Shown: piece by piece, positions 5,778 to 29,126 of the stretch
Position numbering within the stretch: the stretch's first letter is position 1
How the letters are laid out: the number at the start of each line of letters is the position of its first letter
Assembly: GCA_018334875.1 (NCBI GenBank)
Contig: JAGXLC010000015.1
Coordinates: 1-32,414 of the forward strand
DNA length: 32,414 nucleotides
Origin: Bacteroidales bacterium
GTDB lineage: Bacteria > Bacteroidota > Bacteroidia > Bacteroidales > UBA12077
Direction of reading: 5' to 3'
Program-made: the position numbers and the translations under genes
Notes under the pieces: generated by a model
What the model saw: the letters and a program-made list of their open reading frames with translations, nothing else
Told to the model about the DNA's origin: nothing
Database searches by the model: none

Positions 5778-5943
5778 GGCTTATTTCTACAATAACGTTT
5801 GTTAGTTCCTGATCATTCTCTTGTATACGATGCCAAACAGAATGCCGGACAAAAATGATAAAAAAATGTTTGCATATCGATAAAAATACAAAATTAATGC
5901 AGTCTGGTTTTGATAATAAATTTATGGTGAAGTAATTATATAA

Positions 5944-6546
5944 TTATTGTTTTTGCAGGTCATTAAATATATTGATCACCTTTTTGGATTGCCAGTTAAC
6001 GGCACCTTCTTTTCTGAGAATGATCCTGTTATTGCGGCCAATTATCATGGAGGTGGGTAAAACGGAATAGGAAAATGATCCTTCAGGTTTTGATACCAAT
6101 CTGTAAGAAGGGAAATCATAATCTTTTTCTTCCAGATACTTATGTTGTTCGGAAAAAGGCTGGTTGGAAAGGATTAAAAAGTGAACATCCTCACCATATT
6201 GTTTATATAGTTTTTCTATTGTAGGCATTTCCGCGCGGCAAGGTGGACACCAGGTTGCCCAGTAATTAATGAATACAGGTTTATCCAGGAAGTCAGTAAG
6301 TTCATAGCGATTACCTGCATCGTCCTGAAGTACCACACTGTTTTGGCCGTTCAAACTGGATGTCTCTTCTTTTGTTTCAACAGAAGTTAAGTACATCCTG
6401 ATTTTCGAGCCGTAAGTCATCAGTTCCTTTCTGCTGGCCGGTATTAGCAGCAGAATAAGAATCAGTATAAAAAGCAAATCCGTTATTTTTCCAAACCAGG
6501 ATTTTCTTTTGAATTTATGATATTCTTTTTTAAAAAATTTCCTCAT
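5944..6546 (-). CDS. membrane-anchored TlpA-like thioredoxin
   Basis: This 200-residue protein has a basic N-terminus, one membrane segment (about 21-38, rich in Leu/Ile) and a periplasmic thioredoxin-like domain of the TlpA/ResA type. The redox motif is WCPPC with C100 and C103, in the block INYWATWCPPCRAEMP, and the cis-proline loop is SVLPTSMIIG. Such proteins reduce periplasmic disulfides, often for cytochrome c or other cofactor maturation. The gene begins 2 nt after the UbiA-family prenyltransferase gene, so the two form an operon. That pairing suggests a role in respiratory quinone or membrane redox chemistry, but this is inference. Confidence 0.88.
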   Translation of the reverse strand: MRKFFKKEYHKFKRKSWFGKITDLLFILILILLLIPASRKELMTYGSKIRMYLTSVETKEETSSLNGQNSVVLQDDAGNRYELTDFLDKPVFINYWATWCPPCRAEMPTIEKLYKQYGEDVHFLILSNQPFSEQHKYLEEKDYDFPSYRLVSKPEGSFSYSVLPTSMIIGRNNRIILRKEGAVNWQSKKVINIFNDLQKQ

Positions 6547-6548
6547 AA

Positions 6549-7487
6549 TTAAAAGGTTTCCATTATTACGGCAATGGCAATAAGTAGATCGGTTGACAGC
6601 ACTGTCAGCACATTCATTCCAAGCGCCGGTATTAGTTTGGGGGTGTCATAACCATGTTTGAGGGCTCCCATAGAGGCTTTAAAGGCAAAAGGTATAGGAA
6701 TGAGTGCCAGCATGAACCACGGTGAAACGATATTGAAAAGGGCTGCCCCTATAATGATCCCAAAGGTAGCTATCATTCCTGAAATATATACATAGGCAGC
6801 TTTTTTTCTACCCAGCCAGATCACCAGGTGATTTCTGCCACCCTGTTTATCGGCTTCCATATCCGGAAACTCATTGATAAGCAGTAAAAGGGCTGTCAGA
6901 ATTCCCGGCGGAATGGACATTAGCAAAACATCCTGGGGAAACAGTTCTGTTATGGCCATGCTGGGACTGGCTGTCATTACAACATAAGAACCCAGCACTA
7001 CAAAAGTCCCCAGGGTTAGCCCGGAGAATAATTCTCCCAACTGAAGTTTGGCCAGGAAAGTGGTGTAAAAAAGAATGCTGAAAGCTCCCAGCCCTGCCAA
7101 TATAAAAATTATCCAGTGAACGGTGAAGGCAAAATAGATACCAATGGTCAGCGCTATGAGAAGGGTTATGACTGCTGCTTTGAATACACTGGCTGATGAA
7201 AGCAAACCTGAGCTGAGAACGCCGCTCCCTCCGCTGAAAGGCGTACGGGGCGTATTGTGATCGATTTTGGTTTTATTATCTGAATACTCATTGAAGAGGT
7301 TTACAGATATGTGGGAGGATACCACTCCAATTAATAAAAGCGCCGCATACAACGGATTGAATGTTGTTCCCGGCGGGTGATATTTCCAACCAAACGCCAG
7401 CCCTATAGCTACCAGTAAAACTGCAAGGATTAAAAAGGGGGCTCTCATTTCGGCGAGCCATAGTTTCATTTTTTCTTTCGTGCCCAT
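6549..7487 (-). CDS. UbiA-family prenyltransferase (MenA-like)
   Basis: This 312-residue polytopic membrane protein has about eight or nine hydrophobic segments. The first prenyl-diphosphate/Mg2+ binding motif is N66-EYS-D70-NKTKI-D76, and the second is NEFPDMEADKQGGRNHL near 204-220. Together they define the UbiA superfamily, which moves a polyprenyl chain onto an aromatic acceptor. The protein most resembles MenA-type enzymes that prenylate 1,4-dihydroxy-2-naphthoate for menaquinone, but other acceptors are possible because no men genes are adjacent. The start ATG at 7487 lies 19 nt after a TAnnTTTG box. It is co-transcribed with the downstream thioredoxin. Its prenyl substrate would ultimately derive from the mevalonate route encoded at 9719-15018. 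Confidence 0.85.
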   Translation of the reverse strand: MGTKEKMKLWLAEMRAPFLILAVLLVAIGLAFGWKYHPPGTTFNPLYAALLLIGVVSSHISVNLFNEYSDNKTKIDHNTPRTPFSGGSGVLSSGLLSSASVFKAAVITLLIALTIGIYFAFTVHWIIFILAGLGAFSILFYTTFLAKLQLGELFSGLTLGTFVVLGSYVVMTASPSMAITELFPQDVLLMSIPPGILTALLLLINEFPDMEADKQGGRNHLVIWLGRKKAAYVYISGMIATFGIIIGAALFNIVSPWFMLALIPIPFAFKASMGALKHGYDTPKLIPALGMNVLTVLSTDLLIAIAVIMETF

Positions 7488-7506
7488 ATTGTTTTTATTT
7501 GGGTAA

Positions 7507-7514
7507 CAAATATA
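7507..7514 (-). promoter_or_regulatory. -7 promoter box of the prenyltransferase/thioredoxin operon
   Basis: The minus strand reads TATATTTG, an exact TAnnTTTG match 19 nt before the ATG at 7487. A TTTG lies about 25 bp upstream on the same strand, slightly farther than the usual -33 spacing. Confidence 0.5.
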
Positions 7515-7564
7515 AGAAATATTGTGTTTAAACGACGGTCAAATATTTTTGAGATGCTCTAAAT

Positions 7565-7742
7565 AGAGTCTGTCTATAATATCCGCTGGCTGCGTTACGC
7601 TCGTTTTTCATGCCAGTCAATTATATTTGGTGGAGACATACGGCCGTACGTCTCTAAATTGGCATTCAAAACTCGCAAGCCTTGCCAGCGAATATTCCAG
7701 ACGAGACTCTTTCAAATCTCTTTGACTTTATGGACAAACACT
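7565..7742 (+). mobile_element. MITE, copy 1 (178 bp, non-autonomous)
   Basis: The ends are imperfect terminal inverted repeats: AGAGTCTGTCTATAA at the left and, read from the other strand, AGTGTTTGTCCATAA at the right. It is flanked by a 4-bp direct repeat AAAT at 7561-7564 and 7743-7746. Inside, a second long imperfect inverted repeat (left arm 7565-7607, right arm about 7668-7710) would fold the element into a long hairpin. A further near-perfect palindrome at 7633-7654 (GAGACATACGG and its mirror) is unique to this copy. No coding potential is seen. Copy 2 at 9038 shares an identical first 43 nt and a right part of about 75 nt with three mismatches. The parent transposase family is not recognised. 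Confidence 0.85.
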
Positions 7743-7891
7743 AAATAATCTCTGATCTGGAACATTTTCCAATGTACTCACGTATGCATTGGCTAAAGAT
7801 ACCGGTTCTAAACCGTAAAATTCCTTATGTTTTGCATTGGCACATATGGCAGTATTTGCCTTAAAAGCCTAAAATTTTAAATGACAGATAT
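7743..7891. other. leader between MITE copy 1 and the cyclase gene
   Basis: This stretch starts with the right target duplicate AAAT. It includes two spaced copies of GCATTGGC and an ACCGGTTCTAAACCG inverted repeat near 7800-7817. No exact TAnnTTTG box and no ORF were found. Confidence 0.3.
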
Positions 7892-8977
7892 ATGATTACA
7901 TGGGATAAGTTTGTTATACGTTTCAATAAAATGTTACATAATCTTCTGTCTCATTTTGTCTTTTGGTATGTGAGTTTTTTGTTTTTTGTATTTCTTACCG
8001 GTGAAGATCAGATTTTTAAGATCCATCTGAATGTATTACAGTTAAAGAATTTGTATTTGATTATCCTTTTTTTAAGTGCCGGTGTTGCCCTTTTGTTCAC
8101 TTTTCTTGACGGCATCTTTTCCGACCGGATATTAAGGTTTTTCCCAAGACGGCTAATGATATTCCTTAAATCGATGGTATATTTTGTTTCAGCCTTTATT
8201 CTGGCATTGTTGGCAGCCAGGCCTTCACTCGATTTTCCCGGTGAAGGGAATTATGGGGTGATATTACAGCAACTGCCGGCGATGGATATTCATTTTGCCA
8301 GATTTCTTGTATATTTCTATCTCTGTGGTTTTTTTATCAATTTTCTAAAAGGGGTTATGAGAAAGGTGGGCAAAGGAAATTTCAGGAGCTGGCTTTTGGG
8401 AATGCTTAATAAACCAATGGAACAGGAGCGGATTTTCATGTTTCTTGATATGAAATCGTCTACTTCTATCGCGGAAAAGCTCAATCATAAGAAATTCAGT
8501 CATTTGATTCAGGATGTATTTAACGATCTGGAAGTAGTGGATAACTATCAGGGAGAAATTTATCAGTATGTGGGCGATGGTGCCATTATTTCGTGGAAAT
8601 TGAAGGATGGACTGAACAACAACAACTTTCTGCGGGCTTATTATGCTTTTAGAAGGCTTATTCACCGGAGAAGAAGATATTACAGGAGGAAATACGGACA
8701 AGAGCCCAGGTTTAAAGCGGGAGTGCATGCCGGTAAGGTAATGGTGCTCCAGATTGGTCAGATAAGACGGGATATTTCCTACAATGGCGATACCATAAAC
8801 ACGGCTGCCCGAATTGAATCCAAGTGTAATGACTATAAGCAGGATATATTGATATCAAAAGATTTATATGATCGGCTCGAAATGAAAAACGGGTTCAGCT
8901 TTAAACATATCGGTGATGTTCAATTGGATGGTAAAAGAAAAGCGGTTGGCATTTATAAGGTGAAAAATAAAAAGTGA
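7892..8977 (+). CDS. membrane class III adenylate/guanylate cyclase
   Basis: 361 residues. The N-terminal half has about four hydrophobic segments (roughly 21-36, 53-72, 88-108, 137-152), then a cytosolic class III cyclase domain from about 178. The catalytic landmarks are metal-binding D186 in FLDMKSST and D229 in YVGDG, D294 in RRDISYNGD, and N303/R307 in DTINTAARIES, so the domain should be active and make a cyclic nucleotide. The position that normally holds the adenine-reading Lys is Q225 (IYQYVGDG), so base choice cannot be assumed. The gene stands alone between two direct MITE copies, with no receiver, CRP-type regulator or phosphodiesterase beside it. Confidence 0.9.
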   Translation: MITWDKFVIRFNKMLHNLLSHFVFWYVSFLFFVFLTGEDQIFKIHLNVLQLKNLYLIILFLSAGVALLFTFLDGIFSDRILRFFPRRLMIFLKSMVYFVSAFILALLAARPSLDFPGEGNYGVILQQLPAMDIHFARFLVYFYLCGFFINFLKGVMRKVGKGNFRSWLLGMLNKPMEQERIFMFLDMKSSTSIAEKLNHKKFSHLIQDVFNDLEVVDNYQGEIYQYVGDGAIISWKLKDGLNNNNFLRAYYAFRRLIHRRRRYYRRKYGQEPRFKAGVHAGKVMVLQIGQIRRDISYNGDTINTAARIESKCNDYKQDILISKDLYDRLEMKNGFSFKHIGDVQLDGKRKAVGIYKVKNKK

Positions 8978-9037
8978 TTAAAATCTGTTTTATGGATAAA
9001 TATTATATTATCTGTATTTTTGTAGAACGATGTAATT

Positions 9038-9194
9038 AGAGTCTGTCTATAATATCCGCTGGCTGCGTTACGCTCGTTTTGAATGCCAGTCGATTACATC
9101 AAGTAAACTCCTGGCATTCAAAACTCGCAAGCCTTGACAGCGAATATTCTAGACGAGACTCTTTCAAATCTATTTGACTTTATGGACAAACACT
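9038..9194 (+). mobile_element. MITE, copy 2 (157 bp, non-autonomous)
   Basis: Same orientation and same termini as copy 1 (AGAGTCTGTCTATAA at the left, TTATGGACAAACACT at the right). It is flanked by a 4-bp direct repeat AATT at 9034-9037 and 9195-9198. It is 21 bp shorter than copy 1 because the central palindrome is replaced by a short unrelated loop. Its right end lies 23 nt before the hicB ATG, so the hicBA promoter must lie inside the element or have been displaced by it. A near-match to the -7 box (TCTATTTG) occurs at about 9168-9175 within the element. Confidence 0.87.
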
Positions 9195-9217
9195 AATTAA
9201 AAATTAGCATTCATTTT

Positions 9218-9469
9218 ATGAGCAGAAAAAAAGCAAAAGAGATACACTTGCCCATTCTGGTGGAACAGGATGAAGACAACTACTTTATTGTGAGCTGTCC
9301 GGTATATAAAGGTTGCCATTCCTATGGGGAGAGCATTGACGAAGCCCTGGAAAATATTAGAGAAGTTATTGAGATGTGTATGGAGGAGGAAAAAGAGAAA
9401 GAAATGGAGGGTAATAGATTTATTGGATTCAGAGAAATAAAGATATCCCTTAAAGATAGAGTTGTTTAA
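9218..9469 (+). CDS. hicB: HicB-family antitoxin
   Basis: This 83-residue protein has the HicB partial RNase H-like fold: strand HLPILVEQDEDNYFIVSCP, then the GCHSYGESIDEALENIREVIEMCMEE helix, the hallmark of HicB antitoxins. There is no C-terminal helix-turn-helix or ribbon-helix-helix extension, so this short form may repress weakly or not at all. It precedes hicA by 9 nt, the reverse of the common hicA-hicB order. A MITE ends 23 nt upstream. HicB binds and neutralises the HicA mRNase. Confidence 0.9.
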   Translation: MSRKKAKEIHLPILVEQDEDNYFIVSCPVYKGCHSYGESIDEALENIREVIEMCMEEEKEKEMEGNRFIGFREIKISLKDRVV

Positions 9470-9478
9470 TATATTCCT

Positions 9479-9718
9479 ATGGCTTCGCCTCCCGTTATTT
9501 CAGGAAAAGAATTATTGGGCTTATTAAAATCTATTGGTTTTGAGGTTGTTCGGGTAAGAGGTTCCCATCACCGTTTAAAACATCCGGATGGACGCATTAC
9601 TACGATTCCTATACATAGTAATAAAGACCTGCCAAAAGGATTATTACGAAAAATCATTCGTGAGGATCTGAAATTGACCATGGAACAGTTTAATTTACTT
9701 TATGAAAAATATGAATAG
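9479..9718 (+). CDS. hicA: HicA-family mRNA interferase toxin
   Basis: This 79-residue double-stranded-RNA-binding-like protein has the HicA signature: SGKELLGLLKSIGFEVVRVRGSHH with the catalytic His in GSHHRLKHPDG, then TTIPIHSNKDLPKGLLRKIIRE. HicA cleaves mRNA when not bound by HicB. The gene follows hicB by 9 nt. Its TAG stop (9716-9718) directly abuts the stop of the convergent mevalonate kinase gene at 9719, leaving no intergenic base and no room for a terminator. Read-through from either side would produce antisense RNA over the other. Confidence 0.93.
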   Translation: MASPPVISGKELLGLLKSIGFEVVRVRGSHHRLKHPDGRITTIPIHSNKDLPKGLLRKIIREDLKLTMEQFNLLYEKYE

Positions 9719-10687
9719 TTATCTTATCTGATGTACATAAACCGGTATGACTTCCAGGTCTTTCTTTTCCATCATTCTTCGCACTGCGGGTAAGTCATTG
9801 GTAAAACCCAAAAGAAAGCCGCCGCCTCCTGAACCACAGAGTTTCAAATAATATTTCCCGGTATCCAGCCCTTTTTTCCAGATGCTGTGAAAGCCTTCCG
9901 GGATCATGGCATCGAAATGTTTTAGCTGATAGTTGGATAAATCTTGTAAAGCATTGAAAAACTCCCTGTTATTTCCTTTAATAATGGATTGAATGGCCCG
10001 TTGGGTCATGTTATTTAAATGGCCAACATGAATGCCTTGCTCACCGGCTTGCTTTGTTTTTTCCAGAAATATGTTAACCAGTGGACCGGTTTCACCCCTG
10101 TTGCCTGAATTCAGAAGAAATACCGCAAAATCCCGGTTTTTTGCAGGCAGATGGATGTCCACCTTGCGGATTTTACCGTTGCCTTCAAACAGCAATGGCC
10201 TTTTCATATAGGAATTGAGCGGATCAATGCCTGAGCTGGTCCCATGATAGAAGGATTCCAACTGGGCCAGTTGATTTTTTAACGCCACCATATCCCTGGA
10301 AACCATTTGGTCAGGTGAAGGCTTGTTTTTCACGTATCGGTTAAACAAGGCAGCTATCAGGGCGCCCGAACTCCCTATACCATAGCCTTCGGGAATGGTA
10401 GATTCAAAATACATTCCCTTGTTCAGATCTTCAGCAAAAGTTTCCACATCGAACGCGCTCATCAGGCTGTTTTGATCCTGCAATTTTTTTATATATCCCA
10501 ATAAATTGTATAATTCCAGATTGGACTGTTTGGCAAAATCGTAGTCGGTATATTGGTTATCATAGATATAGCTTAGCGCTCCGTTGAAATGTGCATAAGG
10601 AACAGTGAGCGCCATGCTGTTCTTAATTACCGAATATTCGCCAAACAGCATGATTTTGGCATAGTGAACATTGGGGTGTTTGTTCAT
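9719..10687 (-). CDS. mvk: mevalonate kinase
   Basis: This 322-residue GHMP kinase phosphorylates mevalonate with ATP, the first step after HMG-CoA reductase in the lower mevalonate pathway. Landmarks in order: KIMLFGEYSVI (11-21), the ATP loop PEGYGIGSSGAL (99-110), GTSSGIDPL with catalytic D155, and the C-terminal LCGSGGGGFLLGF motif 3. The GTSSGID block matches mevalonate kinase rather than homoserine kinase or galactokinase. The start ATG overlaps the stop of the decarboxylase gene by 4 bp (ATGA), so translation is coupled. It is the last gene of the nine-gene array. Confidence in substrate is high because all the other mevalonate steps are upstream. Confidence 0.92.
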   Translation of the reverse strand: MNKHPNVHYAKIMLFGEYSVIKNSMALTVPYAHFNGALSYIYDNQYTDYDFAKQSNLELYNLLGYIKKLQDQNSLMSAFDVETFAEDLNKGMYFESTIPEGYGIGSSGALIAALFNRYVKNKPSPDQMVSRDMVALKNQLAQLESFYHGTSSGIDPLNSYMKRPLLFEGNGKIRKVDIHLPAKNRDFAVFLLNSGNRGETGPLVNIFLEKTKQAGEQGIHVGHLNNMTQRAIQSIIKGNNREFFNALQDLSNYQLKHFDAMIPEGFHSIWKKGLDTGKYYLKLCGSGGGGFLLGFTNDLPAVRRMMEKKDLEVIPVYVHQIR

Positions 10688-11787
10688 AGATTCTGATCTT
10701 TATCCGGTTGCTCCGGTCCATTCCCGGTAAAATCGTTCAGGGTTCTGCCGTTTTCACAAAGCCCCCTTAGCTTGTTATCAATAAAATTTCGAATATTTTC
10801 CTTTTCTTCAGCCGGATACAGCAGGTGAATATTGGGTCCGGCATCCAGTGTAAATGCCATCTGTGCACCTGTTTCCTGACGGTATGCACGAACACGGTCC
10901 ATAATCTTTATAGATGCATCATTGATCAGAATAAAGCCGGGATTCGATGAAAGCATCAGGGCATGGAGACTAAGCGCCTCGTTTTCTATTGTTTCAGTAA
11001 ATTTTTCAAAGTTACCGGTTTTCAATGTTTCCTTCAATTGTGAAAAGTTTATTCTGGCCTGGCTTATCCTATCCTCTTTGTAAGGGTGATCATTCATTAA
11101 TGAATGACCCTGGGAACTGCTTATTTTTTTGGGTTCGGATGAAGTGATCAATACGGTGTCGTACAGAAATTTCATGTTTTCACTGACTTCTGAGGTAAGC
11201 GGTGTTGCAAAATCGTCTGATCCGTTCCCGGATGCACCCCATTCTACATAATTACCGTATACAGAACGTGCAGCGCTGCCTGAGCCCAGCCGGGCCATAT
11301 AAGATGCTTTTTGCAAGAAATCTTCTGTGCCGGAGTATTCTTCTTTTAGTTGTTTTTCTACGGAACAAATACATAAAGCCAGCGAAGAGAGAGCAGAGGC
11401 CGATGAAGCTATACCGGCGGAATGAGGAAAGTTGTTTTTGCTATAAATAAAAAGCTCCATGTATTTTAGAAAAGGGAAAAAAGGCAAAATCTTATCTATA
11501 AACGCTTTTACCCTCTCTTCAAATGCCGGGTGTTTTTCTCCGTTAAATTTGAATGTAATTCTGCCATAGTTGTTTTCGGCTTTTCTGTATTGCAATTCCG
11601 TTCGGGTATGAGAACTGCTTAAGCTCATACTCAAAGAGGGATTAATTGGCAATTGGTTACCCTTTTTACCCCAGTATTTGATCAGTGCAATATTAGCCGG
11701 TGCTTTCCAAATTACTGATTTGGCAATAGATGAAAGGTCTTCCCGTTTAAATTGAAGTATCTCTTCCAAATATTTGCTTTCACTCAT
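10684..11787 (-). CDS. mvaD: diphosphomevalonate decarboxylase
   Basis: This 367-residue GHMP-fold enzyme converts diphosphomevalonate to isopentenyl diphosphate with ATP. The family blocks are APANIALIKYWGKK (29-42), INPSLSMSLSSSHT, HSAGIASSASALSSLAL, ARLGSGSAARSVYGNYVEW and LDAGPNIHLLY with catalytic D315. The position usually Cys in GSGSACRS is Ala, as in some bacterial forms. The frame is open to 11847, but the ATG at 11787 is chosen. It overlaps the upstream kinase gene by exactly 8 bp (ATGAGTGA holds this start and that stop), and the extra 20 residues have no family counterpart. The last roughly 30 residues are polar and probably disordered. Confidence 0.93.
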   Translation of the reverse strand: MSESKYLEEILQFKREDLSSIAKSVIWKAPANIALIKYWGKKGNQLPINPSLSMSLSSSHTRTELQYRKAENNYGRITFKFNGEKHPAFEERVKAFIDKILPFFPFLKYMELFIYSKNNFPHSAGIASSASALSSLALCICSVEKQLKEEYSGTEDFLQKASYMARLGSGSAARSVYGNYVEWGASGNGSDDFATPLTSEVSENMKFLYDTVLITSSEPKKISSSQGHSLMNDHPYKEDRISQARINFSQLKETLKTGNFEKFTETIENEALSLHALMLSSNPGFILINDASIKIMDRVRAYRQETGAQMAFTLDAGPNIHLLYPAEEKENIRNFIDNKLRGLCENGRTLNDFTGNGPEQPDKDQNL

Positions 11788-12706
11788 ATTTTCTATTTTT
11801 GACCAGCTCACTCCATGAAAAGAAAATCTCCATATTATGGGAGTCAAGGTATTTTTTTAATTCTTCCTTTGATTCTTTCCAGGTAATCAGCATGAAGTCT
11901 CCTCCCCAGGCCCCCAGTGATTTAACCACCCCAGGGTAGTCCTGGAATGCTTTCTCCTGTATCGGCTCTTCATCCAGTACGGAAGCAATAAGCTGCTCAT
12001 GTTCCCAAAGTGCTTCTTCGAATTCGCGTAGCCACTGACAATGGATCATTCGACGATTGATCTCTTTAATTACGGGAAAAAGGTGGCTATAATCTTTCGG
12101 ATCCTCCAGGAAATTTTTTACTTCATTGAAAGTGTTTTGTTTTTTTCCGGTATATACAAAATATAAGTATTCTTTAAAAGGAAAGTCCAGGTTAATTTCT
12201 TTATAAGCAGGGTATTTATCTATGATGTTATAAAGAATGGGGCTTTCACTCAGAGCACATGCTATATCATAGCCTGAGCCATTGGTTAACGTTCGGTTTA
12301 AGCGAAAAGGGTTGATGTTCAGCCATTTTGCAATATTTGTTATTAGCGTGGAACTGCTCCCCAGACCCCATTTCAACGGAAAATCAAGGATGGCTTCAAA
12401 ATAATAGCCGGGAATTCGGGACAAAGCCGGCACGAATTCCACGGCTTTCTTTAACAAATTCTGAATATATAAGGCCTGATTTTCATTGCTGGCCTGAACG
12501 ATATTAAGGTTTTTGTTGGAAAACACCGCTTCGAGGAAGGGCTCATCCTGGTATATGCTTTGCCATATGATCTTATTATCCTCTATGGGTTTTGCTTTTA
12601 ACGTTTGTCCTTTCGTCAGGGGAAGGGCCAAAGCTTCCGCACCTTTTAAAACCAGATATTCAGCAGTCAGGAGAAGTTTTCCATTGGAATGGTATTCGTG
12701 AATCAT
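11780..12706 (-). CDS. GYDIA-family GHMP kinase, probable phosphomevalonate kinase
   Basis: 308 residues. It has GHMP kinase motifs: HSNGKLLLTAEYLVLKGAEALALP (6-29), the phosphate loop KWGLGSSSTLI (112-122), then NGSGYDIACALS, which contains the GYDIA motif (145-149) that names this Bacteroidota family. Motif 3 is degenerate (LGAWGGDFMLI). By elimination it should phosphorylate 5-phosphomevalonate. The array has reductase, mevalonate kinase and decarboxylase but no classical phosphomevalonate kinase, and this gene sits between reductase and decarboxylase with 4-bp and 8-bp overlaps. The kinase fold is seen, the family name is established, and the substrate is inferred. Confidence 0.85.
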   Translation of the reverse strand: MIHEYHSNGKLLLTAEYLVLKGAEALALPLTKGQTLKAKPIEDNKIIWQSIYQDEPFLEAVFSNKNLNIVQASNENQALYIQNLLKKAVEFVPALSRIPGYYFEAILDFPLKWGLGSSSTLITNIAKWLNINPFRLNRTLTNGSGYDIACALSESPILYNIIDKYPAYKEINLDFPFKEYLYFVYTGKKQNTFNEVKNFLEDPKDYSHLFPVIKEINRRMIHCQWLREFEEALWEHEQLIASVLDEEPIQEKAFQDYPGVVKSLGAWGGDFMLITWKESKEELKKYLDSHNMEIFFSWSELVKNRKYE

Positions 12707-14007
12707 ATTTTTCCTTCAATAAATGCCTTAACTTTTTCGTGGGTAACCTCTTTATCCTTAAAATAGGCTCTGATCTTATCTTTCATATCCTCATCAACAT
12801 CAAAAGCCATCAGAATGTTTTCCAGATGGAGTTTCATGTGACCTTTTTGTATGCCTGTTGTGATAAGTGAGGTTATGGCGCTGAAATTACTTGCCAGTCC
12901 CACGGCAGCCGTAATTTTCATCAGTTCTTTTGCATCCGGCTGACCCAATATATCCAGTGATTTGGCGGCAAGTGGATGCAGCCGGGTTACACCTCCGACT
13001 GTACCCAGGGCCAGTGGGATATTGATCTGAAAAGTAAATGTGTCCTCGACGATTTCGCATTTGGTTAATGAGGTTGGTTTTCCCTTCGTAATACTAAAAG
13101 CATGGGCCGCTGCTTCCAGTGCCCTGAAATCATTTCCGGTGGCGATTGCCACAGCATCAATACCGTTCATGATGCCTTTGTTATTTGTAACAGCCCTGGA
13201 TACGCTATGATTAGCAATTTGAGCCGCTTTTTTAAACTTTTCCGCAAACTGAACTCCGTTTAAAGAAGGGTAAAAATCTTGAAATGCTTCAACCGGGCAT
13301 TCAACTTTCATTTTGACATAGGAGCCCGGCGTGTAATTGGATAAAATGGACATAAGTATTTCAAGTTTTCCAGGGTGTTGATGATCAACAAATTTCTTGA
13401 ATTCCTGTGCTGTCTTTTCCAGAACCGAATTGATAAAATTGGCTCCCATTGAGTCAACGGTTTCGAGAGATAATCCAAGCAGATAATAATTATCCATTTC
13501 GCTTGTCATATCTGTAATCCATGTTTCGTTTATTCCACCACCCCGTGCATCCATATTCCTGGTTACATCGGCAAGTTTATCCTTAATATCCGCTTCGAAT
13601 TCCTTAAACAGCGATTCCAGTTCATCAGGTGCTCCATACCACAGAACGTGTACATGACCGCGTTTTGCGGTTCCAATTTCTTCTGTCCGGAAACCTCCAT
13701 GTTGATACCAGAATTTGGAGGCTTTGGAGGCCGCAGCAATCACTGAGCTTTCTTCAGTGACCATAGGGACCTGGTACACTTTTCCGTCAATAAGAAAATT
13801 GGGAGCAATGCCATAAGGCATATGAAAATTTGAAATCGTATTTTCGCTGAATTGTTCGAATTTTTGCTGCAGGGAACTGTCCTGAAAGCGATAATCTTTT
13901 AATTCGTTGACAAACGCTTCAGGGTCTTCCATGGTGTTTGCAAGCAATTTTATTTTTTCGTCCCTGTTAAGCTTGCTGAATCCTTTAATGAATTGATTGT
14001 CTGACAT
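12703..14007 (-). CDS. mvaA: class II hydroxymethylglutaryl-CoA reductase
   Basis: This 434-residue HMG-CoA reductase interconverts HMG-CoA and mevalonate with NAD(P)H. The class II signature ENTISNFHMPYGIAPNF is at 55-71. The catalytic Glu is E85 in VTEESSVIAA, Lys and Asp lie in NNKGIMNGIDAVAIATGND, and the mobile C-terminal His is H390 in GHMKLH. Class II enzymes occur in bacteria and archaea and include both degradative (NAD) and biosynthetic forms. Here the kinases and decarboxylase downstream point to biosynthesis. The stop overlaps the next gene by 4 bp (ATGA). The four genes before the isomerase make its substrate from leucine. Confidence 0.95.
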   Translation of the reverse strand: MSDNQFIKGFSKLNRDEKIKLLANTMEDPEAFVNELKDYRFQDSSLQQKFEQFSENTISNFHMPYGIAPNFLIDGKVYQVPMVTEESSVIAAASKASKFWYQHGGFRTEEIGTAKRGHVHVLWYGAPDELESLFKEFEADIKDKLADVTRNMDARGGGINETWITDMTSEMDNYYLLGLSLETVDSMGANFINSVLEKTAQEFKKFVDHQHPGKLEILMSILSNYTPGSYVKMKVECPVEAFQDFYPSLNGVQFAEKFKKAAQIANHSVSRAVTNNKGIMNGIDAVAIATGNDFRALEAAAHAFSITKGKPTSLTKCEIVEDTFTFQINIPLALGTVGGVTRLHPLAAKSLDILGQPDAKELMKITAAVGLASNFSAITSLITTGIQKGHMKLHLENILMAFDVDEDMKDKIRAYFKDKEVTHEKVKAFIEGKI

Positions 14008-14025
14008 AATAATTGATTTTTTGGT

Positions 14026-15018
14026 TTATATGATTTTAAGATAATTATTGGCAAATTGTAAACCTTCTATCTGGCCTTTCGCAAACTGTTTGAGCGACTG
14101 ATAATCCTCCCTGGCATGTTTGAGAAATCCTGAAGCCATTCCGTAAACTGAAGGCATTTGACTTATATTGATCAAATAATACCCGTCAAGGAAATTTTTA
14201 ATCCCGCCGGAAATGACCAGGTTTTCCGTTTGTACAGGAAGTTCCTCTTCAAGCAATTGATTAATTAATACGACCATTTCTTCGGCAGTTTGACCGATGT
14301 AGGAAAGGGGTTCCAAAAGGCTGGCATTAGCATCTTCGTTTCTCATGAGTTCAATTTTGGCAAAATTGGTTCCGCCAAAGGCCCCGAATTCTATTGCAGT
14401 CAGAGGTAGCTGTAACAAGGTTTTAAGACTTTGTTTGCCCATGCCCTGACCCACTTCTTTAACTATGACATTAAAGTCTGCAACATCCAGCAACCTGCTT
14501 ATGCTGTCGATGGGTGGATGTTTGATATAATCCCCTTCGGGCTGAAGCCATTCCTGCAGAGGATTGACATGAATGATCAGGCCATCGGCCTTCAATAAAC
14601 TAACGAGATCTTTTAGGGTTTGGATGTCGTCTTTTTCAAGATACTGTTCAATTTGGGCAATGCCCAGATTGGCATAAAACGGAACTGCATCACCAATGAT
14701 CGGCTTCAGATTGAAGTCGGGCAGATGCCGCTCATCTTTAAGCAGTATATGACAGGATCCCAGCCCCATTCCAAGTCCGAATTCAGCAGCCACGGCAGCC
14801 AGATTGTGATTTATTTTACGTGCCTCCGGGGTACCTCCCGTCATACTGGAGATCCATACCGGGGCTTTCATTGTTTTTCCGCCTAATGTTGTTTCGGGCA
14901 GGGAACCATTTGGATGTCCACTGATCATGGGTTCATAGAAAAACCGCGTGTCCTTTTCGGATATGGTTGTCTTATTGTTTAAAGCCAGAGAAATATGATC
15001 ACTTTTTCTGTTATGCAT
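14026..15018 (-). CDS. fni: type 2 isopentenyl-diphosphate isomerase (FMN)
   Basis: This 330-residue TIM-barrel flavoenzyme interconverts IPP and DMAPP. The start RKSDHISLAL matches the family opening. WISSMTGGTPEARKIN (55-70) binds FMN, and HVNPLQEWLQPEGD contains Q155 and catalytic E156. VIVKEVGQGM, the FGAFGGTNFAKIE flavin-phosphate loop and LVISGGIKN follow. It is the first mevalonate-half gene, 94 nt after the dehydrogenase and 18 nt before the reductase. The 94-nt gap is AT-rich with no hairpin terminator and no exact TAnnTTTG box, so read-through from the leucine half is likely. Confidence 0.94.
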   Translation of the reverse strand: MHNRKSDHISLALNNKTTISEKDTRFFYEPMISGHPNGSLPETTLGGKTMKAPVWISSMTGGTPEARKINHNLAAVAAEFGLGMGLGSCHILLKDERHLPDFNLKPIIGDAVPFYANLGIAQIEQYLEKDDIQTLKDLVSLLKADGLIIHVNPLQEWLQPEGDYIKHPPIDSISRLLDVADFNVIVKEVGQGMGKQSLKTLLQLPLTAIEFGAFGGTNFAKIELMRNEDANASLLEPLSYIGQTAEEMVVLINQLLEEELPVQTENLVISGGIKNFLDGYYLINISQMPSVYGMASGFLKHAREDYQSLKQFAKGQIEGLQFANNYLKII

Positions 15019-19091: not shown

Positions 19092-20681
19092 TTACATTCT
19101 GAATACGCCATTATGCGGCTCACCGTATGGTTTGTTTCTTGAAATGGCAATACCTATTGCCAGCACTTTGCGAGTATCTACCGGATCGATGATACCGTCA
19201 TCCCATACCCGGGAAGTACTGTAGTAAGCTGAACTCTCATACTGATACTTTTCCAGCATTTTGTTTTTAAAATTTTCAATTTCTTGTTCATCAAGTTTTT
19301 CTCCGGCCTTCTCCATCTGGGTTTTTTTAATGCTGGTGAGTACACTGGCTGCCTGTTCTCCTCCCATAACCGAGATCTTCGCATTGGGCCACATGAATAG
19401 CAAACGGGGATCGTAGGCTCTTCCTGCCATTGCATAATTACCCGCTCCAAAAGATCCGCCAATGATGACGGTAAATTTGGGTACATTGGCATTGGCCACG
19501 GCATGGATCATCTTTGCCCCGTCGCGTGCGATGCCCTCATGTTCGTATTTCTTTCCGACAATAAAACCCGAAATATTCTGTAGAAAGACCATGGGAATTT
19601 TACGGTACTGGCAAAGTTCAACAAAATGTGCTCCTTTTCTGGCTGTTTCTCCGTAGATTACGCCGTTGTTGGCCAATATCCCAACCGGGTAGCCCATTAT
19701 TCTGGCAAAGGCTGTGATTAAAGTAGTTCCGTAATCTTTCTTGAATTCCTGAAATTCACTGCCGTCTACTATCCGATTGATGATCTCCCGGATATTGGGC
19801 TGTTTTTTAAGATCAACAGGAGCCAAATCATAAAGATCCTCCGGACTGTATGCAGGTTCCCTAGGTTCAGCAACATCTAAAGGTTCTTTATAGGGACGGG
19901 GGAGTTTGGAAAATATATTCCTGCAGATATCAATGGCATGCAGATCATCTTCCGCTATATGATCAGCCACACCCGATATTTGGGTATGTACCCGGGCCCC
20001 GCCCAGCTCTTCATCGGTTACTTCTTCTCCGGTAGCTGCTTTTACAAGAGGGGGGCCGCCTATAAAGATCGTTCCCTGGTTGCGGACAATAATGGTTTCA
20101 TCGCTCAGGGCAGGAACATAAGCCCCACCTGCCGTGCAGGAGCCCATCACAATCGATATCTGGGGAATACCTTCTGCCGACATTTGAGCCTGGTTGCGGA
20201 ACAAACGTCCAAAATCCTCCTTATCAGGAAACACCCTGGATTGTTCAGGAAGAAAAATGCCCCCACTGTCAACCATATAAACTACCGGCAAATGGTTTTC
20301 CATAGCTATTTCCTGGGCCCGGACATGTTTTCTTATCGTCTCTCTGACATAAGTTCCGCCTTTTACTGTGGCATCGTTGGCTATGATCACACTTTCCCGG
20401 CTATTAATAACACCGATACCCGTTACTATACCTGCCGAGGGAAAACTCCCGCCATACTGATCATTGGCTGCAAGCGGGGAGAGTTCCATAAAAGGAGTCT
20501 GAGGATCGATCAATTGTTCAATGCGCTCTCTGGCTAAAAGTTTACCTCTGTTCCTGTGTTTGGTAACCGCTTTTTTACCCCCAGCCTGATGCACTTCATG
20601 CATCATTGATCTGTAACGGTACATTATCTCGAAAAATTCGTTATTTTCCTTTTTTGACTTATTATGGGTATCGCTTGCCAA
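19092..20681 (-). CDS. 3-methylcrotonyl-CoA carboxylase, beta (carboxyltransferase) subunit
   Basis: This 529-residue carboxyltransferase has acyl-CoA (crotonase-like) N and C halves. Typical blocks: RGKLLARERIEQLIDP, VYMVDSGGIFLPEQSRVFPD, GSCTAGGAYVPALSDE, IFIGGPPLVKAATGEEV and GGSFGAGNYAMAGRAYDPR. GIFLPEQSRVFPD and GGPPLVKAATGE fit methylcrotonyl-CoA rather than propionyl-CoA carboxylase. The start is a TTG at 20681. It is kept because the residues it adds (ENNEFFEIMYRYRSMM) align with the family's N-terminal helix. The ATG at 20624 would cut that helix. It is the first gene of the array, 63 nt downstream (minus strand) of a large inverted repeat. Confidence 0.92.
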   Translation of the reverse strand: MASDTHNKSKKENNEFFEIMYRYRSMMHEVHQAGGKKAVTKHRNRGKLLARERIEQLIDPQTPFMELSPLAANDQYGGSFPSAGIVTGIGVINSRESVIIANDATVKGGTYVRETIRKHVRAQEIAMENHLPVVYMVDSGGIFLPEQSRVFPDKEDFGRLFRNQAQMSAEGIPQISIVMGSCTAGGAYVPALSDETIIVRNQGTIFIGGPPLVKAATGEEVTDEELGGARVHTQISGVADHIAEDDLHAIDICRNIFSKLPRPYKEPLDVAEPREPAYSPEDLYDLAPVDLKKQPNIREIINRIVDGSEFQEFKKDYGTTLITAFARIMGYPVGILANNGVIYGETARKGAHFVELCQYRKIPMVFLQNISGFIVGKKYEHEGIARDGAKMIHAVANANVPKFTVIIGGSFGAGNYAMAGRAYDPRLLFMWPNAKISVMGGEQAASVLTSIKKTQMEKAGEKLDEQEIENFKNKMLEKYQYESSAYYSTSRVWDDGIIDPVDTRKVLAIGIAISRNKPYGEPHNGVFRM

Positions 20682-20743
20682 TGTTGTCTAATTTTTTAAT
20701 ATCCGTGTGTATCGTCTTATTTGTGAAACAGAAAACAGCTTCT

Positions 20744-20777
20744 ATTGTTTAATATCTAAAAAAATATATTAAACAAT
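20744..20777 (-). promoter_or_regulatory. inverted repeat in the leader of the leucine/mevalonate array (candidate operator)
   Basis: ATTGTTTAATAT at 20744-20755 and ATATTAAACAAT at 20766-20777 are perfect reverse complements separated by 10 A-rich bases. The element lies 63 nt upstream of the first start codon and 79 nt from the sia terminator. On the minus strand its spacer and arm edge include TATTTTTT, one base from a TAnnTTTG box. A protein bound here could therefore block the promoter. No regulator gene is adjacent. An RNA hairpin is possible but would be weak (all A-U except one pair per arm). Confidence 0.5.
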
Positions 20778-20825
20778 TTTATTCAGGGAATTTGTTGTCT
20801 TTACTGAAAAGAAAAAGGGTAGGAC

Positions 20826-20867
20826 AAAAAAAAGCCACGCAGAATTTTTGCTGCGTGGCTTTTTTTG
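20826..20867 (-). terminator. intrinsic terminator after siaC, usable on both strands
   Basis: A perfect 10-bp stem (AGCCACGCAG at 20833-20842 and CTGCGTGGCT at 20851-20860) closes an 8-nt loop. It is flanked by A-runs on the left and T-runs on the right, so both strands end in a U-tract. It lies 17 nt after the siaC stop and separates the sia operon from the carboxylase-led array transcribed in the same direction. Confidence 0.93.
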
Positions 20868-20883
20868 TCAGATTAGAAGGCCT

Positions 20884-21264
20884 TTAGTCTACAATTTCAA
20901 TCATTTTAAAAGGTATCCGAATGATGGATTCGTAATCTTCACCCGATTCCAGCATATCTTCATCGTCTTCTTCGTAATACCAGTTGATAATTACTTCGTT
21001 GCGTGATTTTTTGAGCGACTCCAATTTTTTAAAAATATCCAGAATGCATTTTGAAGAACTTGTGTTGAAGTATTCCAACTGTACATTCACCGTTGTTTTT
21101 TTATTCGGGTTTTTTGCATATTCATCAAGCCATTCCACAATAGGACGATAAAATTCAATTGAATTTTCCGGGATTGAACGCCCTTTGATTTCAATGACCC
21201 CAGACACCGGATCCAGTTTTACGCTTGGGGTCTTGTTTGTACCTTCAATTGATAATGATTCCAT
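20884..21264 (-). CDS. siaC: SiaC-family regulatory phosphoprotein (DUF1987)
   Basis: This 126-residue anti-sigma-antagonist-like protein belongs to the family typified by Pseudomonas aeruginosa SiaC. The opening is LSIEGTNKTPSVKLDPVSGVIEIKGRSIPENS (4-35). The conserved YFNTSSSK block holds T68, the same number as the phosphorylated Thr of P. aeruginosa SiaC. There, dephospho-SiaC activates the diguanylate cyclase SiaD, SiaB phosphorylates SiaC and SiaA dephosphorylates it. Here only B and C are present, with siaB 23 nt upstream. The C-terminus is strongly acidic (YYEEDDEDMLESGEDYE). The partner output protein is not in view, and a c-di-GMP link is unproven. Confidence 0.9.
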   Translation of the reverse strand: MESLSIEGTNKTPSVKLDPVSGVIEIKGRSIPENSIEFYRPIVEWLDEYAKNPNKKTTVNVQLEYFNTSSSKCILDIFKKLESLKKSRNEVIINWYYEEDDEDMLESGEDYESIIRIPFKMIEIVD

Positions 21265-21287
21265 ACTTTTATTATTGTTTATTTTCC

Positions 21288-21833
21288 TTATACATATATT
21301 TCGAGGTTAAAAAAAGAATACTCCTTATTGTAAACGGTAAATTTATATTCTATCTTTCCATCCGTCCGCTTTGCCATGTCAACCAACCCAAGGCCAACAC
21401 CTCCTTTTTGAGTAAATTCCTGATGATTGAGAATACTCTTGTAGAGTTCCTTCAGTTCATCTTTTGATAACGACTTAATCTTTTCCAGTCTTTGCTTTAA
21501 GGGTTTGATTTTTTCATTTTTTATAAAATTCCCGGTAGAAACCTTATAATGATCTTTATTTTGGGCAACTACAAATATTCCAAAGTGAATATCGAATTTT
21601 CCGTTGCTTGTATCCGGCAGATCATCAATATGATGGTATAAATTTTGCAAACTCTCAACCAGTATATTGTAAAGTTTCTTCTTAATGCTTTTTTTCACAA
21701 TCATATCCTCCAGCTTGGCATCCATTACTTCAAGAACATTGGTAATTAATTCAGAGGAAATACTGCCTTTGTAAGCCAATATGGTATTCCCCGAATTTAA
21801 CTGTGAATAAAAATCATCAATGTTGAAGTCCAT
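21288..21833 (-). CDS. siaB: SiaB-family protein kinase
   Basis: This 181-residue protein has an atypical GHKL/HATPase-like fold. The N-box is YNILVESLQNLYHHID (55-70, with E60, N64 and H67) and the G-box is QKGGVGLGLVDMAKR (142-156). In P. aeruginosa SiaB phosphorylates SiaC on a threonine, and the siaC homologue follows here after 23 nt. The frame opens at a TTG at 21845, but the ATG at 21833 is preferred. A TAnnTTTG box lies at 21876-21883, and ATG fits the family length. There is no membrane segment, so it should act in the cytosol. Confidence 0.9.
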   Translation of the reverse strand: MDFNIDDFYSQLNSGNTILAYKGSISSELITNVLEVMDAKLEDMIVKKSIKKKLYNILVESLQNLYHHIDDLPDTSNGKFDIHFGIFVVAQNKDHYKVSTGNFIKNEKIKPLKQRLEKIKSLSKDELKELYKSILNHQEFTQKGGVGLGLVDMAKRTDGKIEYKFTVYNKEYSFFNLEIYV

Positions 21834-21875
21834 CCAAGTCTGCAAAAGATATAGCTTTTAAAATTAAAGATTTAG

Positions 21876-21883
21876 CAAAAATA
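21876..21883 (-). promoter_or_regulatory. -7 promoter box of the siaBC operon
   Basis: The minus strand reads TATTTTTG, matching TAnnTTTG, 42 nt before the siaB ATG at 21833. No clear -33 TTTG at standard spacing was found. Confidence 0.4.
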
Positions 21884-21962
21884 GCAAAATTGTCGCTGAA
21901 TGTATTATATATCATCCCGGTTTTATTTATTAATTTGCTTTCTGTTTACGTAAAAATTCCAA

Positions 21963-23108
21963 TCAGGTTTGTTTGTTTTTTAAACTTCCTTCATAAATTT
22001 TGTATTTTTGAAATTTACATTCCAAAGGACCGTTGAAAAGGGTCATTTTGTTGGTAGCATGAAGTCCGATACACTTTAGTGCTTGTTTATGATTGCTAAA
22101 TATCCATACATCATAACCGGTATATTTCTTTTTCAATATATTACCGATTTTCTTGTAAAAAGCCTGGATATCGTGTTCCTTTAATTTATGACCATACGGA
22201 GGGTTGATGATAACGGTTCCAGTTTTTTCTGAAGGTGGTTGATAATCTGAAACGGACTGTGGAAAAAGTTCAACGTTTCTGCTCATATTCGACTTCTCCA
22301 GATTTTTGCGCGTTATTTCTATGGCTTCTTCCGATATGTCACAGCCATGGATTTTCACCTTACTTTGAGGTCTTGCTCTGAATTGGTTTTTGATGGACCG
22401 AAAAAGAGTGGGGTCAAAATCGTGCCAGTTTTCGAAACCGAACGCTTCCCGGTAAATTCCCGGCGGAATCTCGTTTGCCAGCAGTGCAGCTTCGATAAGC
22501 AATGTTCCCGAACCACACATAGGATCAATAAAGGGGCTTTTTTTGTCCCATCCCGAAAGTATTATCAAACCAGCGGCAAGTGCCTCATTTAAGGGAGCCT
22601 TGACATTTTGGGTCTTGTAGCCTCTTTTATGCAATGAGTCTCCCGAGCTATCCAGTGATAACGTACATTGATCCCCTGATATGTGCAGATTGATTCGGAA
22701 ATCGGGAAATTTTTTGTTTACGGAAGGCCTTTTGTTGTATTTATTTCGGAATCGATCCACTATGGCATCCTTTGTTTTCAGGGAGGCATATTGGGAATGC
22801 TTAAAAAAACCGGAATTTACCACACCGTCAATTACAAAAGTGTTATACAAATTGAACAGTTTCTCCCATTCGTATTGATAAACTTCCCGGTAAAGGACAT
22901 TTTCTGATTTTGCCTGGAATGTTTTCAACGGGACCAGTATTTTAAGGGCGGTTCTTGAATAAATATTCGATTTATAGAGCATGGATTTATCCCCCTGAAA
23001 TTTAACCGCCCTGTTCAGTATTTCGGTATTTTCAGCTCCCATTTTCTTCAGTTCTTCTTCCAGAACTTCCTCCAGACCCCAAAAAGTTTTGGCTATGTAT
23101 GTATTCAT
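21963..23108 (-). CDS. rlmL: THUMP-domain RNA (guanine-N2) methyltransferase, RlmL-like
   Basis: This 381-residue SAM-dependent methyltransferase has an N-terminal ferredoxin-like/THUMP region (about 1-155, including HISGDQCTLSLDSSG), then a Rossmann domain. The methyltransferase motifs are IDPMCGSGTLLIEAALLANEIPPG (194-217), GCDISEEAIEITRKN and the N6/N2 methylase motif INPPYG (301-306). This is the arrangement of RlmL N-terminal/YcbY-like enzymes, which make m2G2445 in 23S rRNA. The C-terminal RlmK half found in enteric bacteria is absent, as in most Bacteroidota homologues. The upstream hairpin at 23129-23161 lies in its leader. Confidence 0.9.
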   Translation of the reverse strand: MNTYIAKTFWGLEEVLEEELKKMGAENTEILNRAVKFQGDKSMLYKSNIYSRTALKILVPLKTFQAKSENVLYREVYQYEWEKLFNLYNTFVIDGVVNSGFFKHSQYASLKTKDAIVDRFRNKYNKRPSVNKKFPDFRINLHISGDQCTLSLDSSGDSLHKRGYKTQNVKAPLNEALAAGLIILSGWDKKSPFIDPMCGSGTLLIEAALLANEIPPGIYREAFGFENWHDFDPTLFRSIKNQFRARPQSKVKIHGCDISEEAIEITRKNLEKSNMSRNVELFPQSVSDYQPPSEKTGTVIINPPYGHKLKEHDIQAFYKKIGNILKKKYTGYDVWIFSNHKQALKCIGLHATNKMTLFNGPLECKFQKYKIYEGSLKNKQT

Positions 23109-28600: not shown

Positions 28601-29038
28601 TTAATCTTTGACACCAATCATGACCGATACACACCCGCTGACAGGAATCTCGCTTTCCTTTGTGCTGTTATCTACCTTAAGAGATATAAGCACTTCCTGG
28701 CTTGAATCGGGTACGAAATCCCATTTGGTTTTATAATCGTCATTTTTATTGTCGTAAATCACAGTTTGGTTCCTATCCTTTACCTGGAAATGGATTCCGG
28801 GAATGTTTTCAGAGCCACAAACATATATGCGGTAATTTTTATGGGCATCGAGTGTTTTATATATTTTTGCGGTTTCTCCTTCAGAAAGAATGGATACATG
28901 ATAATTGCCATCATGAATATATGGAGTGAGCTCTTTTTCACAAACCTTTTTTGCAAAAGGTTTGCATTGACTTTTACCATTAGTCGGAGCCATTATGAAC
29001 GCCATCAAAAGAAGTATTAAAGCATAAAATTTTTTCAT
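28601..29038 (-). CDS. secreted cysteine-containing protein of unknown function
   Basis: This 145-residue protein has a clear signal peptide (MKKFYALILLLMAFIMAPTNGKSQ) and a mature part beginning CKPFAKKVCEKELTPYIHDGNYH. The rest is beta-rich, with IYVCGSENIPGIHFQVKD and WDFVPDSSQEVLISLKV. Four Cys in the mature protein could form two disulfides. The layout resembles a small periplasmic or secreted beta-sandwich, but no named family is recognised. The ATG at 29038 is chosen because it starts the signal peptide, although the frame extends to 29068. It is convergent with uvrA and has no functional neighbour. Confidence 0.8.
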   Translation of the reverse strand: MKKFYALILLLMAFIMAPTNGKSQCKPFAKKVCEKELTPYIHDGNYHVSILSEGETAKIYKTLDAHKNYRIYVCGSENIPGIHFQVKDRNQTVIYDNKNDDYKTKWDFVPDSSQEVLISLKVDNSTKESEIPVSGCVSVMIGVKD

Positions 29039-29126
29039 AACGGAACTCCATCCTTTATTTACAAACAATTTGACACATTATTTTAACGTAAAAGTACCTG
29101 TAAAGTTTCAGTTCTGTAAATTGTTA

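Follow-up and report, generated by a model that had tools for sequence, protein, structure and literature searches.

What does a SiaB-SiaC phosphorylation switch control when neither its phosphatase nor its diguanylate cyclase is encoded beside it? In Pseudomonas aeruginosa, SiaB phosphorylates SiaC at T68 and SiaA is the phosphatase; when it is not phosphorylated, SiaC binds SiaD at its helical stalk and activates it, which phosphorylation of T68 prevents (PMC7647112, PMC8457831). The question is raised by a locus in a genome from uncultured Bacteroidales, where a kinase gene and a substrate gene form a unit on a contig (C15) in which family searches detected no SpoIIE or GGDEF match. We analyzed the whole 32,414-nucleotide stretch of DNA surrounding the pair (the window) along with the rest of the assembly (4.72 Mb in 533 contigs, 96.3% complete, 2.4% contaminated) and with related loci of the family and phylum, in which ORFs were called with a simple longest-ORF caller and small home-made profiles served to label SiaB, SiaC, SpoIIE, GGDEF, Che, and transporter genes, except where Pfam is named. 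The explanation that best accommodates the observations, to which we give an even chance, is a SiaB-SiaC switch served by a SpoIIE phosphatase in trans, whose output is not a cyclase but ancestrally an ABCG-type transporter carrying a TerB domain (TerB-ABCG), and which now acts in trans.

Identity and Organization of the Window Pair

Both genes of the unit (table 1) could be assigned to their families by several independent profiles. The window SiaC matched Pfam PF09345 (E 7.5e-47; 158.4 bits against a gathering threshold of 24.5) and P. aeruginosa SiaC (6kko_C; phmmer E 9.2e-18), with 36 of 120 aligned residues identical, and the window SiaB matched DUF6272 (PF19788; E 1.9e-39, 134.8 bits over a threshold of 26.6) and SiaB 6kko_A (phmmer E 5.6e-10), passing the cut-off of the NCBIfam model NF038262 "SiaB family protein kinase" (156.1 bits, cut-off 85). 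Unlike the P. aeruginosa proteins, the two stay under the equivalog cut-offs for true SiaB (NF038264; 70.9 vs. 225 bits) and for the biofilm regulation phosphoprotein SiaC (NF038265; 102.7 vs. 150 bits). Weak matches, far below the NCBIfam cut-offs, were also produced with the cyanobacterial slr1658 and slr1659 superfamily regulators, to which the pair is possibly akin at a distance.

In the alignment to 6kko_C, a Thr is found exactly at residue 68 of the window SiaC, within the sequence YFNTSS of the conserved Y-x-N-T-S loop, in agreement with the predicted phosphorylation site. In SiaB, a glycine-rich GGVGLGL box occurs at position 144, which we take to be the ATP lid, and Glu60 and Asn64 align with a Glu and an Asn of 6kko_A. 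If a numbering offset is assumed, Glu60 is presumably the counterpart of Glu61, the predicted catalytic residue of P. aeruginosa SiaB (PMC7647112). On the strength of these families and residues, the pair very probably conserves the phosphorylation chemistry of the P. aeruginosa system. The SiaC residues contacting SiaD outside N67-T68-S69 differ in the window protein (D79K, R103D, L107S, and D114I); these four positions are also changed in GGDEF-linked SiaC proteins of the phylum (L098 and L101), and hence they cannot tell partners apart. Comparison with three congeners yielded pN values of 0.05–0.07 for siaC and 0.14–0.15 for siaB, with pS, which is saturated, at 0.78–0.90 and 0.87–0.88, respectively, indicating purifying selection on both genes. 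A SiaC 89% identical to the window protein is carried by the record CAJXLK010000023.1, entitled "uncultured Bacteroidetes bacterium."

Table 1. Coordinates of the features discussed in the window
Feature	Position	Strand	Basis or remark
siaC, SiaC-family phosphoprotein, 126 aa, Thr68	20884..21264	-	Pfam, NCBIfam, phmmer, alignment
siaB, SiaB-family (DUF6272) kinase, 181 aa from ATG	21288..21833	-	Pfam, NCBIfam, phmmer, alignment
Near-symmetric (two-way) terminator-like hairpin 3' of siaC	20823..20869	.	Fold energy
129-bp gap 5' of siaB	21834..21962	-	Contains TTAATA-18-TATAAT match at 21933-21904
rlmL-like methyltransferase gene (UPF0020, THUMP, RlmL_1st), control neighbor upstream of the pair	21963..23108	-	Pfam; kept in many relatives
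Acyl-CoA carboxylase beta-subunit-like gene	19092..20681	-	Named by eye from translation
Small secreted protein gene, weakly similar to small proteins accompanying TerB-ABCG genes	28601..29068	-	Sequence comparison

The original prediction of a two-gene operon closed by its own terminator agrees with the 23-nt spacing between siaB and siaC and with the hairpin located 15–61 nt past siaC. Its core (GCCACGCAG-CAAAAATT-CTGCGTGGC) is flanked by A and T tracts, and it folds at -27.2 kcal/mol (z -8.4), a stability equaled by 0 of 200 shuffled sequences; the designation as terminator rests on this fold, since a stock terminator scan listed no site there. A TTG at 21845, upstream of the siaB ATG, would add four residues if used as the start. 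The sigma-70 scan detected eight sites in 20600-22000 against 6.2 expected, so that the promoter-like match 5' of siaB occurs at chance frequency, and an Rfam scan around the pair returned nothing over threshold. The G+C content around the pair (0.32–0.35) is lower than that of the carboxylase genes (0.42–0.47). Elsewhere in the window we observed a class III nucleotide cyclase (PF00211) at 7892-8977, the N-terminal half of which is hydrophobic by eye, a PIN-domain protein (848-1261), a HicB-like protein (9218-9469), and degenerate tandem repeats with a 21-bp unit (39-342), lying partly within an ORF at 180-449. A mevalonate-pathway-like cluster at 4689-15018, named by eye from the translations, comprises HMG-CoA synthase, kinases, a decarboxylase, HMG-CoA reductase, and a type 2 IPP isomerase.

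SpoIIE and GGDEF Domains in the Genome

Family searches of the assembly detected 16 SpoIIE domains, ten SiaC, and four SiaB. The claim that the phosphatase is missing thus stands for the locus and its contig and fails for the genome, which conserves two SpoIIE-SiaB-SiaC operons on other contigs (C104 and C78); the proposed recourse to a distant SpoIIE-type phosphatase gains from the same result, and such an enzyme probably serves the window SiaC. A 1114-aa protein with Reg_prop, Y_Y_Y, and SpoIIE domains encoded on C9 (L222) was the best match for 5 of 14 SpoIIE domains found near orthologous pairs, although near ties in this similarity ranking leave it as a candidate only. The absence of a diguanylate cyclase was borne out, as the assembly held no GGDEF domain in a search that was positive in 8 of 14 control genomes; no siaD-like partner acting as in Pseudomonas emerged.

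The operon on C104 (L023) runs in one direction through two cheR-like genes, cheB, a GAF gene, a GAF-PAS-PAS-SpoIIE gene, siaB, siaC, a TerB-ABCG transporter gene, and genes for a lipoprotein and a small secreted protein, with a SiaC 54% identical to the window SiaC; the name of the second cheR comes from similarity or inspection instead of Pfam. On C78, REC-SpoIIE, TPR-SpoIIE, siaB, and siaC likewise follow each other in one direction. The C104 operon and its counterparts in family f10 share the kinase and substrate families with the window pair but have their own phosphatase and transporter, neither of which adjoins the latter.

Expecting this rewiring "in this phylum" was too broad, because canonical SpoIIE-SiaB-SiaC-GGDEF operons also occur there (L098, L101, and L102, family f29). 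These employ the same kinase and substrate families and, unlike the window pair, keep the phosphatase and the GGDEF protein within the operon. Nor are the missing genes special to the window locus: in 24 SiaC loci from 16 other SiaC-bearing genomes of a 296-genome phylum sample, covering up to 8 kb on each side, GGDEF follows siaC in three, SpoIIE is found in 18 and lacking in six, and a full-length TerB-ABCG transporter follows siaC in four (convergent in L103; in the same direction in L117, L118, and L119). One 625-aa ORF directly before siaC (L120, 8462-10339) matches both the SpoIIE and the SiaB home-made profiles and is likely a phosphatase-kinase fusion. The window pair is hence a true and fairly common SiaB-SiaC pair, one of several in its genome, and not an isolated oddity.

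The TerB-ABCG Transporter as Recurrent Neighbor

A different output, as originally proposed, is suggested by the gene neighborhood. Of 24 further family genomes examined, 20 have a window-type siaB (59–76% identity). Among 20 loci of the orthologous pair, 19 have a convergent TerB-ABCG gene directly after siaC, truncated in some by the end of the contig; in the exception (L078, G015) a gene of this type lies on another contig (C178). The window genome has the carboxylase-like gene at that spot. Upstream, rlmL is present in 15 of the 20 loci, and among the other five, one siaB starts 366 bp from the contig end.

The transporter, of about 1030 aa, matches the Pfam TerB, ABC_tran, and ABC2_membrane families, with Walker and ISGGQ motifs recognizable by eye. 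In its predicted structure (mean pLDDT 78.0, pTM 0.62), residues 243-1009 match ABCG half-transporters (8i3d_A; Z 32.9, rmsd 4.1, 523 residues aligned) and the best Foldseek hit was 7r89_A (E 1.4e-21), while residues 1-141 are helical and residues 153-222 beta-rich, both being barely covered by the fold search. An FHA domain suspected from the sequence gained no support, in that eight TerB-ABCG stretches produced no FHA match, but the unassigned beta-rich residues leave room for one. The gene is often followed by genes for a lipoprotein of about 300 aa and a secreted protein of about 150 aa, neither of which matched a known family among the examples tested. The former, labeled a lipoprotein from an invariant Cys after the leader seen by eye, produced no Pfam match and no PDB sequence match, a MazE match far below cut-off in one of two NCBIfam scans, and a mainly helical model (mean pLDDT 75.9) for which Foldseek returned nothing at E <= 0.001; a PhnD-like identity was dropped for want of a family, PDB, or fold match.

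This linkage recurs in different arrangements. The same-direction order cheR-cheB-GAF-like-SpoIIE-siaB-siaC-TerB-ABCG-lipoprotein-small protein was found in the window genome (L023), in G003 (L134), and in three f10 genomes (L117-L119); a third configuration, lipoprotein-TerB-ABCG-siaC, was found in G013 (L126), and a convergent transporter also lies beside siaC in family f9 (L103). Among the matches listed, with SiaC matches reaching down to about 2.6e-35 and 78 transporters counted, 37 of the 40 type I and type II transporter genes (type II being the window type) had a SiaC within 600 bp, where random placement predicts 1.3 of 78 across all types; of the three without one, two begin at a contig end. 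The other TerB-ABCG paralogs scored 0 of 38, a lower bound that undercounts, given that L126 has a SiaC nearby; the count omits shorter transporter fragments, two of which (G007 and G019) do adjoin siaC. Second transporter copies in three f10 genomes (L227-L229) showed no SiaC within the fetched stretch. In a transporter tree, the genes beside window-type pairs (those of the family and of seven further loci used) form one clade with full support, C104-type and f10 genes form another, and L103, L188, and L200 form a third branch adjacent; type I and type II transporters are thereby close kin, such that one ancestral linkage with subsequent rearrangement is possible. The window genome itself encodes transporters of the C104, C6, and C192 types. 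More distant TerB-ABCG paralogs have other neighbors, with SpoIIE genes lying divergently from one of them (L124 8775-9989, REC-SpoIIE by Pfam, and L125 5334-6551) and a REC-histidine kinase gene preceding another (L128).

We further scanned a species-genome collection with the SiaC alignment, which confirmed at least 538 loci, of which the best 80 were kept; these all come from records titled MAG, with Bacteroidota names except for one (L214, Chlorobiota), and at least four, judging by their length, are contigs of family genomes already counted. A SiaC ORF was called in 78 (the two others, L163 and L205, both have a transporter), and four of the 78 had no downstream gene. In the 74 remaining loci, the next gene after siaC was a convergent transporter in 42 and was not in 32, with L188 and L189 having a transporter 3.1–3.4 kb downstream. 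A SpoIIE gene lay within up to 9 kb upstream in 10 of 78; the order SpoIIE, lipoprotein-like, siaB, siaC was observed in six loci (L170, L189, L196, L204, L208, and L215), and L188 was similar with a larger gap.

These counts bear equally on the reading, which we consider possible though not probable, that the pair is a working switch and the transporter a mere neighbor by inherited gene order, the output being another protein, for example a sensor/GAF protein or a partner shared with SiaC paralogs. Both flanks could be read in 69 of these loci, of which 40 have rlmL, 40 have the transporter, 30 have the two together, and 19 have neither; since rlmL is an equally conserved neighbor, part of the transporter linkage is inherited gene order, and since the window genome and the 32 loci above have no transporter as next gene, the pair does not need one there. 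This is the main evidence against a transporter output. Inherited order does not readily account, however, for a linkage recurring in three orientations with three types of SiaC, one arrangement being a single-direction operon that includes the phosphatase in two families, which is the main support for the transporter.

Inherited order also fits poorly with the distribution in the phylum. In the 296-genome draw (taken to be the same for all three counts from equal number and handles), SiaC was found in 17 genomes and GGDEF in 157, and, scoring two candidates per genome, full-length transporter matches (>1200 bits, covering the model from position 1 to about 1020) were confined to five (G000, G069, G073, G170, and G210), all of which have SiaC and, unlike every other SiaC genome, no GGDEF match. 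The overlap has P 3e-7 if genomes are independent, and P of about 0.003 by family (3 of 3, assuming 50 families). Partial matches to the ABC part (E <= 1e-60) occurred in two genomes with SiaC (G299 and G307) and two without it (G164 and G204), and G100, of family f10 like three of the five, was listed with neither SiaC nor transporter. The other 12 of the 17 SiaC genomes have GGDEF matches and no full-length transporter match, which makes the transporter no more than one output among several. Five of these, all f29, have 6–10 GGDEF matches at E 1e-47 or better, and the other seven a single weak one (E 1e-11 to 1e-18) that may not be a cyclase; a strict mutual exclusion of GGDEF and transporter, considered initially, was softened accordingly. 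Weighing both sides, we put the TerB-ABCG transporter as ancestral output of this SiaC type, as the gene linkage would have it, slightly short of an even chance.

Numbers of SiaC, SiaB, and GGDEF Proteins

The ten SiaC and four SiaB of the window genome raise the alternative of a cross-talking SiaABC network, in which many SiaC share few kinases and some SpoIIE phosphatases, the window SiaB serving solo SiaC proteins or the pair competing for phosphatases. SiaC (1–19 matches) and SpoIIE (5–24 matches) are present in all 24 family genomes searched, the window genome included, and of 24 family genomes with listed matches to both SiaC and SiaB, 23 have more of the former, the ratio being 1:1 in G002. 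On C101 (L026 8149-9481), three tandem siaC genes without siaB, one of them with Ser replacing Thr (YVNSSSSQ), have a TPR-SpoIIE gene some 2 kb away, and solo siaC genes occur on C20, C56, and C149. Nevertheless, siaB lies directly upstream of siaC in 74 of the 78 best loci with a SiaC call, and in the other four siaC starts less than 600 bp from the end of its contig; this points to a dedicated pair and makes the shared network unlikely.

The fourth siaB lies on C4 (L025 8182-12150), within a string of STAS, rnz-like, guaA-like, siaB, siaC, and S41 peptidase genes, the names rnz and guaA coming from similarity or inspection instead of Pfam. In many genomes of the sister genus this type of string is located just upstream of the window-type pair, which places two different SiaBC pairs within about 5 kb. 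Double-length SiaB ORFs (about 345–392 aa) were also seen, in L104 (4720-5814) and in several sister-genus genomes, the latter with two SiaB matches in one frame.

An output through c-di-GMP as in Pseudomonas would require a diguanylate cyclase missed in an assembly that is 96% complete and in 533 contigs; canonical operons do exist in the phylum, and a GGDEF match was found in 9 of 24 family genomes, one of which (G018, 78% complete) has an intact GGEEF. The remaining eight matches, from the sister genus, are nonetheless one 195–198 aa protein in which we found nothing resembling GG[DE]EF (the copy read, L080, has NGDEF), and no SiaC was present in the flanks of about 1.5 kb of any of the ten GGDEF loci fetched. 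Five genomes of the window genus, four of them at least 93% complete, had no GGDEF match, and no GGDEF gene was detected within up to 9 kb on each side of the 78 best loci. Such an output is therefore highly improbable, and the window pair almost certainly does not act through c-di-GMP.

History of the Window Locus

The window SiaC groups with the type II SiaC of G003, G010, and G017 (support 99/97). No member of the type II transporter clade was seen in the window assembly, and the congeners G001, G003, and G004 have one. Between siaC and the convergent transporter gene, G004 conserves a hairpin with a core similar to that of the window, and G001 and G003 have none as strong; the window hairpin may thus be a two-way terminator that remained when the module was lost, judging from one relative. 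An ortholog (55–58% identity) of the small secreted protein gene of the window adjoins the lipoprotein gene of about 300 aa in G001 and G003, a gene that was not found in the window. The carboxylase gene matched nothing in any of the 80 best loci, hence its junction with siaC is rare, private to the window genome, or an assembly artefact.

Loss of the partner module, with no transporter beside the pair and the lipoprotein gene missing nearby, could have left a functionless relict, but the intact frames, key residues, hairpin, and selection values make this scarcely credible; as far as substitution patterns tell, the pair is kept under purifying selection despite the transporter loss. Equally hard to sustain is an output through the window's own class III nucleotide cyclase, whose gene is 12 kb distant. 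The idea has the precedent that Pseudomonas SiaC activates a nucleotide cyclase, but none of the ORFs in the 20 family loci had the window cyclase as best match, and it produced no match at E 1e-20 in the 80 best loci.

A Proposed Non-Cyclase Output for the SiaB-SiaC Switch

The preferred explanation, a switch with a SpoIIE phosphatase in trans and a non-cyclase output, would operate as follows. SiaB would phosphorylate SiaC at Thr68, and at least one SpoIIE phosphatase encoded elsewhere in the genome, for which the C9 protein is one candidate, would remove the phosphate. Unphosphorylated SiaC would then bind a partner and set its activity, and this partner would not be a diguanylate cyclase, given that the genome search detected no GGDEF domain. 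The ancestral partner would be the TerB-ABCG transporter, encoded convergently in relatives and directly downstream of siaC in the C104 operon; SiaC may bind the cytoplasmic N-terminal region of this transporter much like the SiaD stalk in Pseudomonas. Since the window pair persists with no transporter module next to it, it would act in trans, on a paralogous transporter or another target, a step we regard as evenly balanced.

Compared with P. aeruginosa SiaABCD, the window operon conserves siaB and siaC adjacent and in the same order, Thr68 in its loop, and SpoIIE phosphatases in the genome, but the operon has no SpoIIE gene and the genome no detected GGDEF. In the parts of the literature consulted, Mycobacterium tuberculosis Rv1747-PknF offers a parallel of an ABC exporter genetically tied to Ser/Thr phosphorylation (PMC3908365, PMC5549992), although it involves the kinase PknF and FHA domains, whereas the TerB-ABCG proteins tested had no FHA match and the kinase here is of the SiaB type. 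The STAS-type partner switches HsbA and BgrV, as presented in PMC8457831, follow the same logic of kinase, STAS-like substrate, and phosphatase, but SiaC/DUF1987 and SiaB/DUF6272 are separate Pfam families and the window neighbors are rlmL-like and carboxylase genes. A literature search that left subscription journals and preprints outside found no account of a SiaBC-transporter circuit in Bacteroidota, and in a word search DUF6272 was unmentioned and DUF1987 almost unmentioned.

The interest of the pair lies in an expanded SiaABC set within a GGDEF-free genome and in the recurrent transporter neighbor. A common function of modulating "adjacent proteins" has been proposed for DUF1987 proteins (PMC8457831), and a lineage with many SiaC and no GGDEF makes this idea testable, with the recurrent ABCG-type transporter bearing a TerB domain as a concrete candidate for the SiaC output. 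Tentatively, and at rather less than an even chance, SiaABC may be a general-purpose switch with a swapped output: in part of Bacteroidota, where the genomes have no diguanylate cyclases, SiaC would gate a TerB-ABCG-type export machine that has a lipoprotein and a secreted partner of its own, Che-type methylation enzymes would provide an extra input, and the window pair would be a free-standing remnant of this wiring. If true, this would add control of an export machine by Thr phosphorylation for the phylum.
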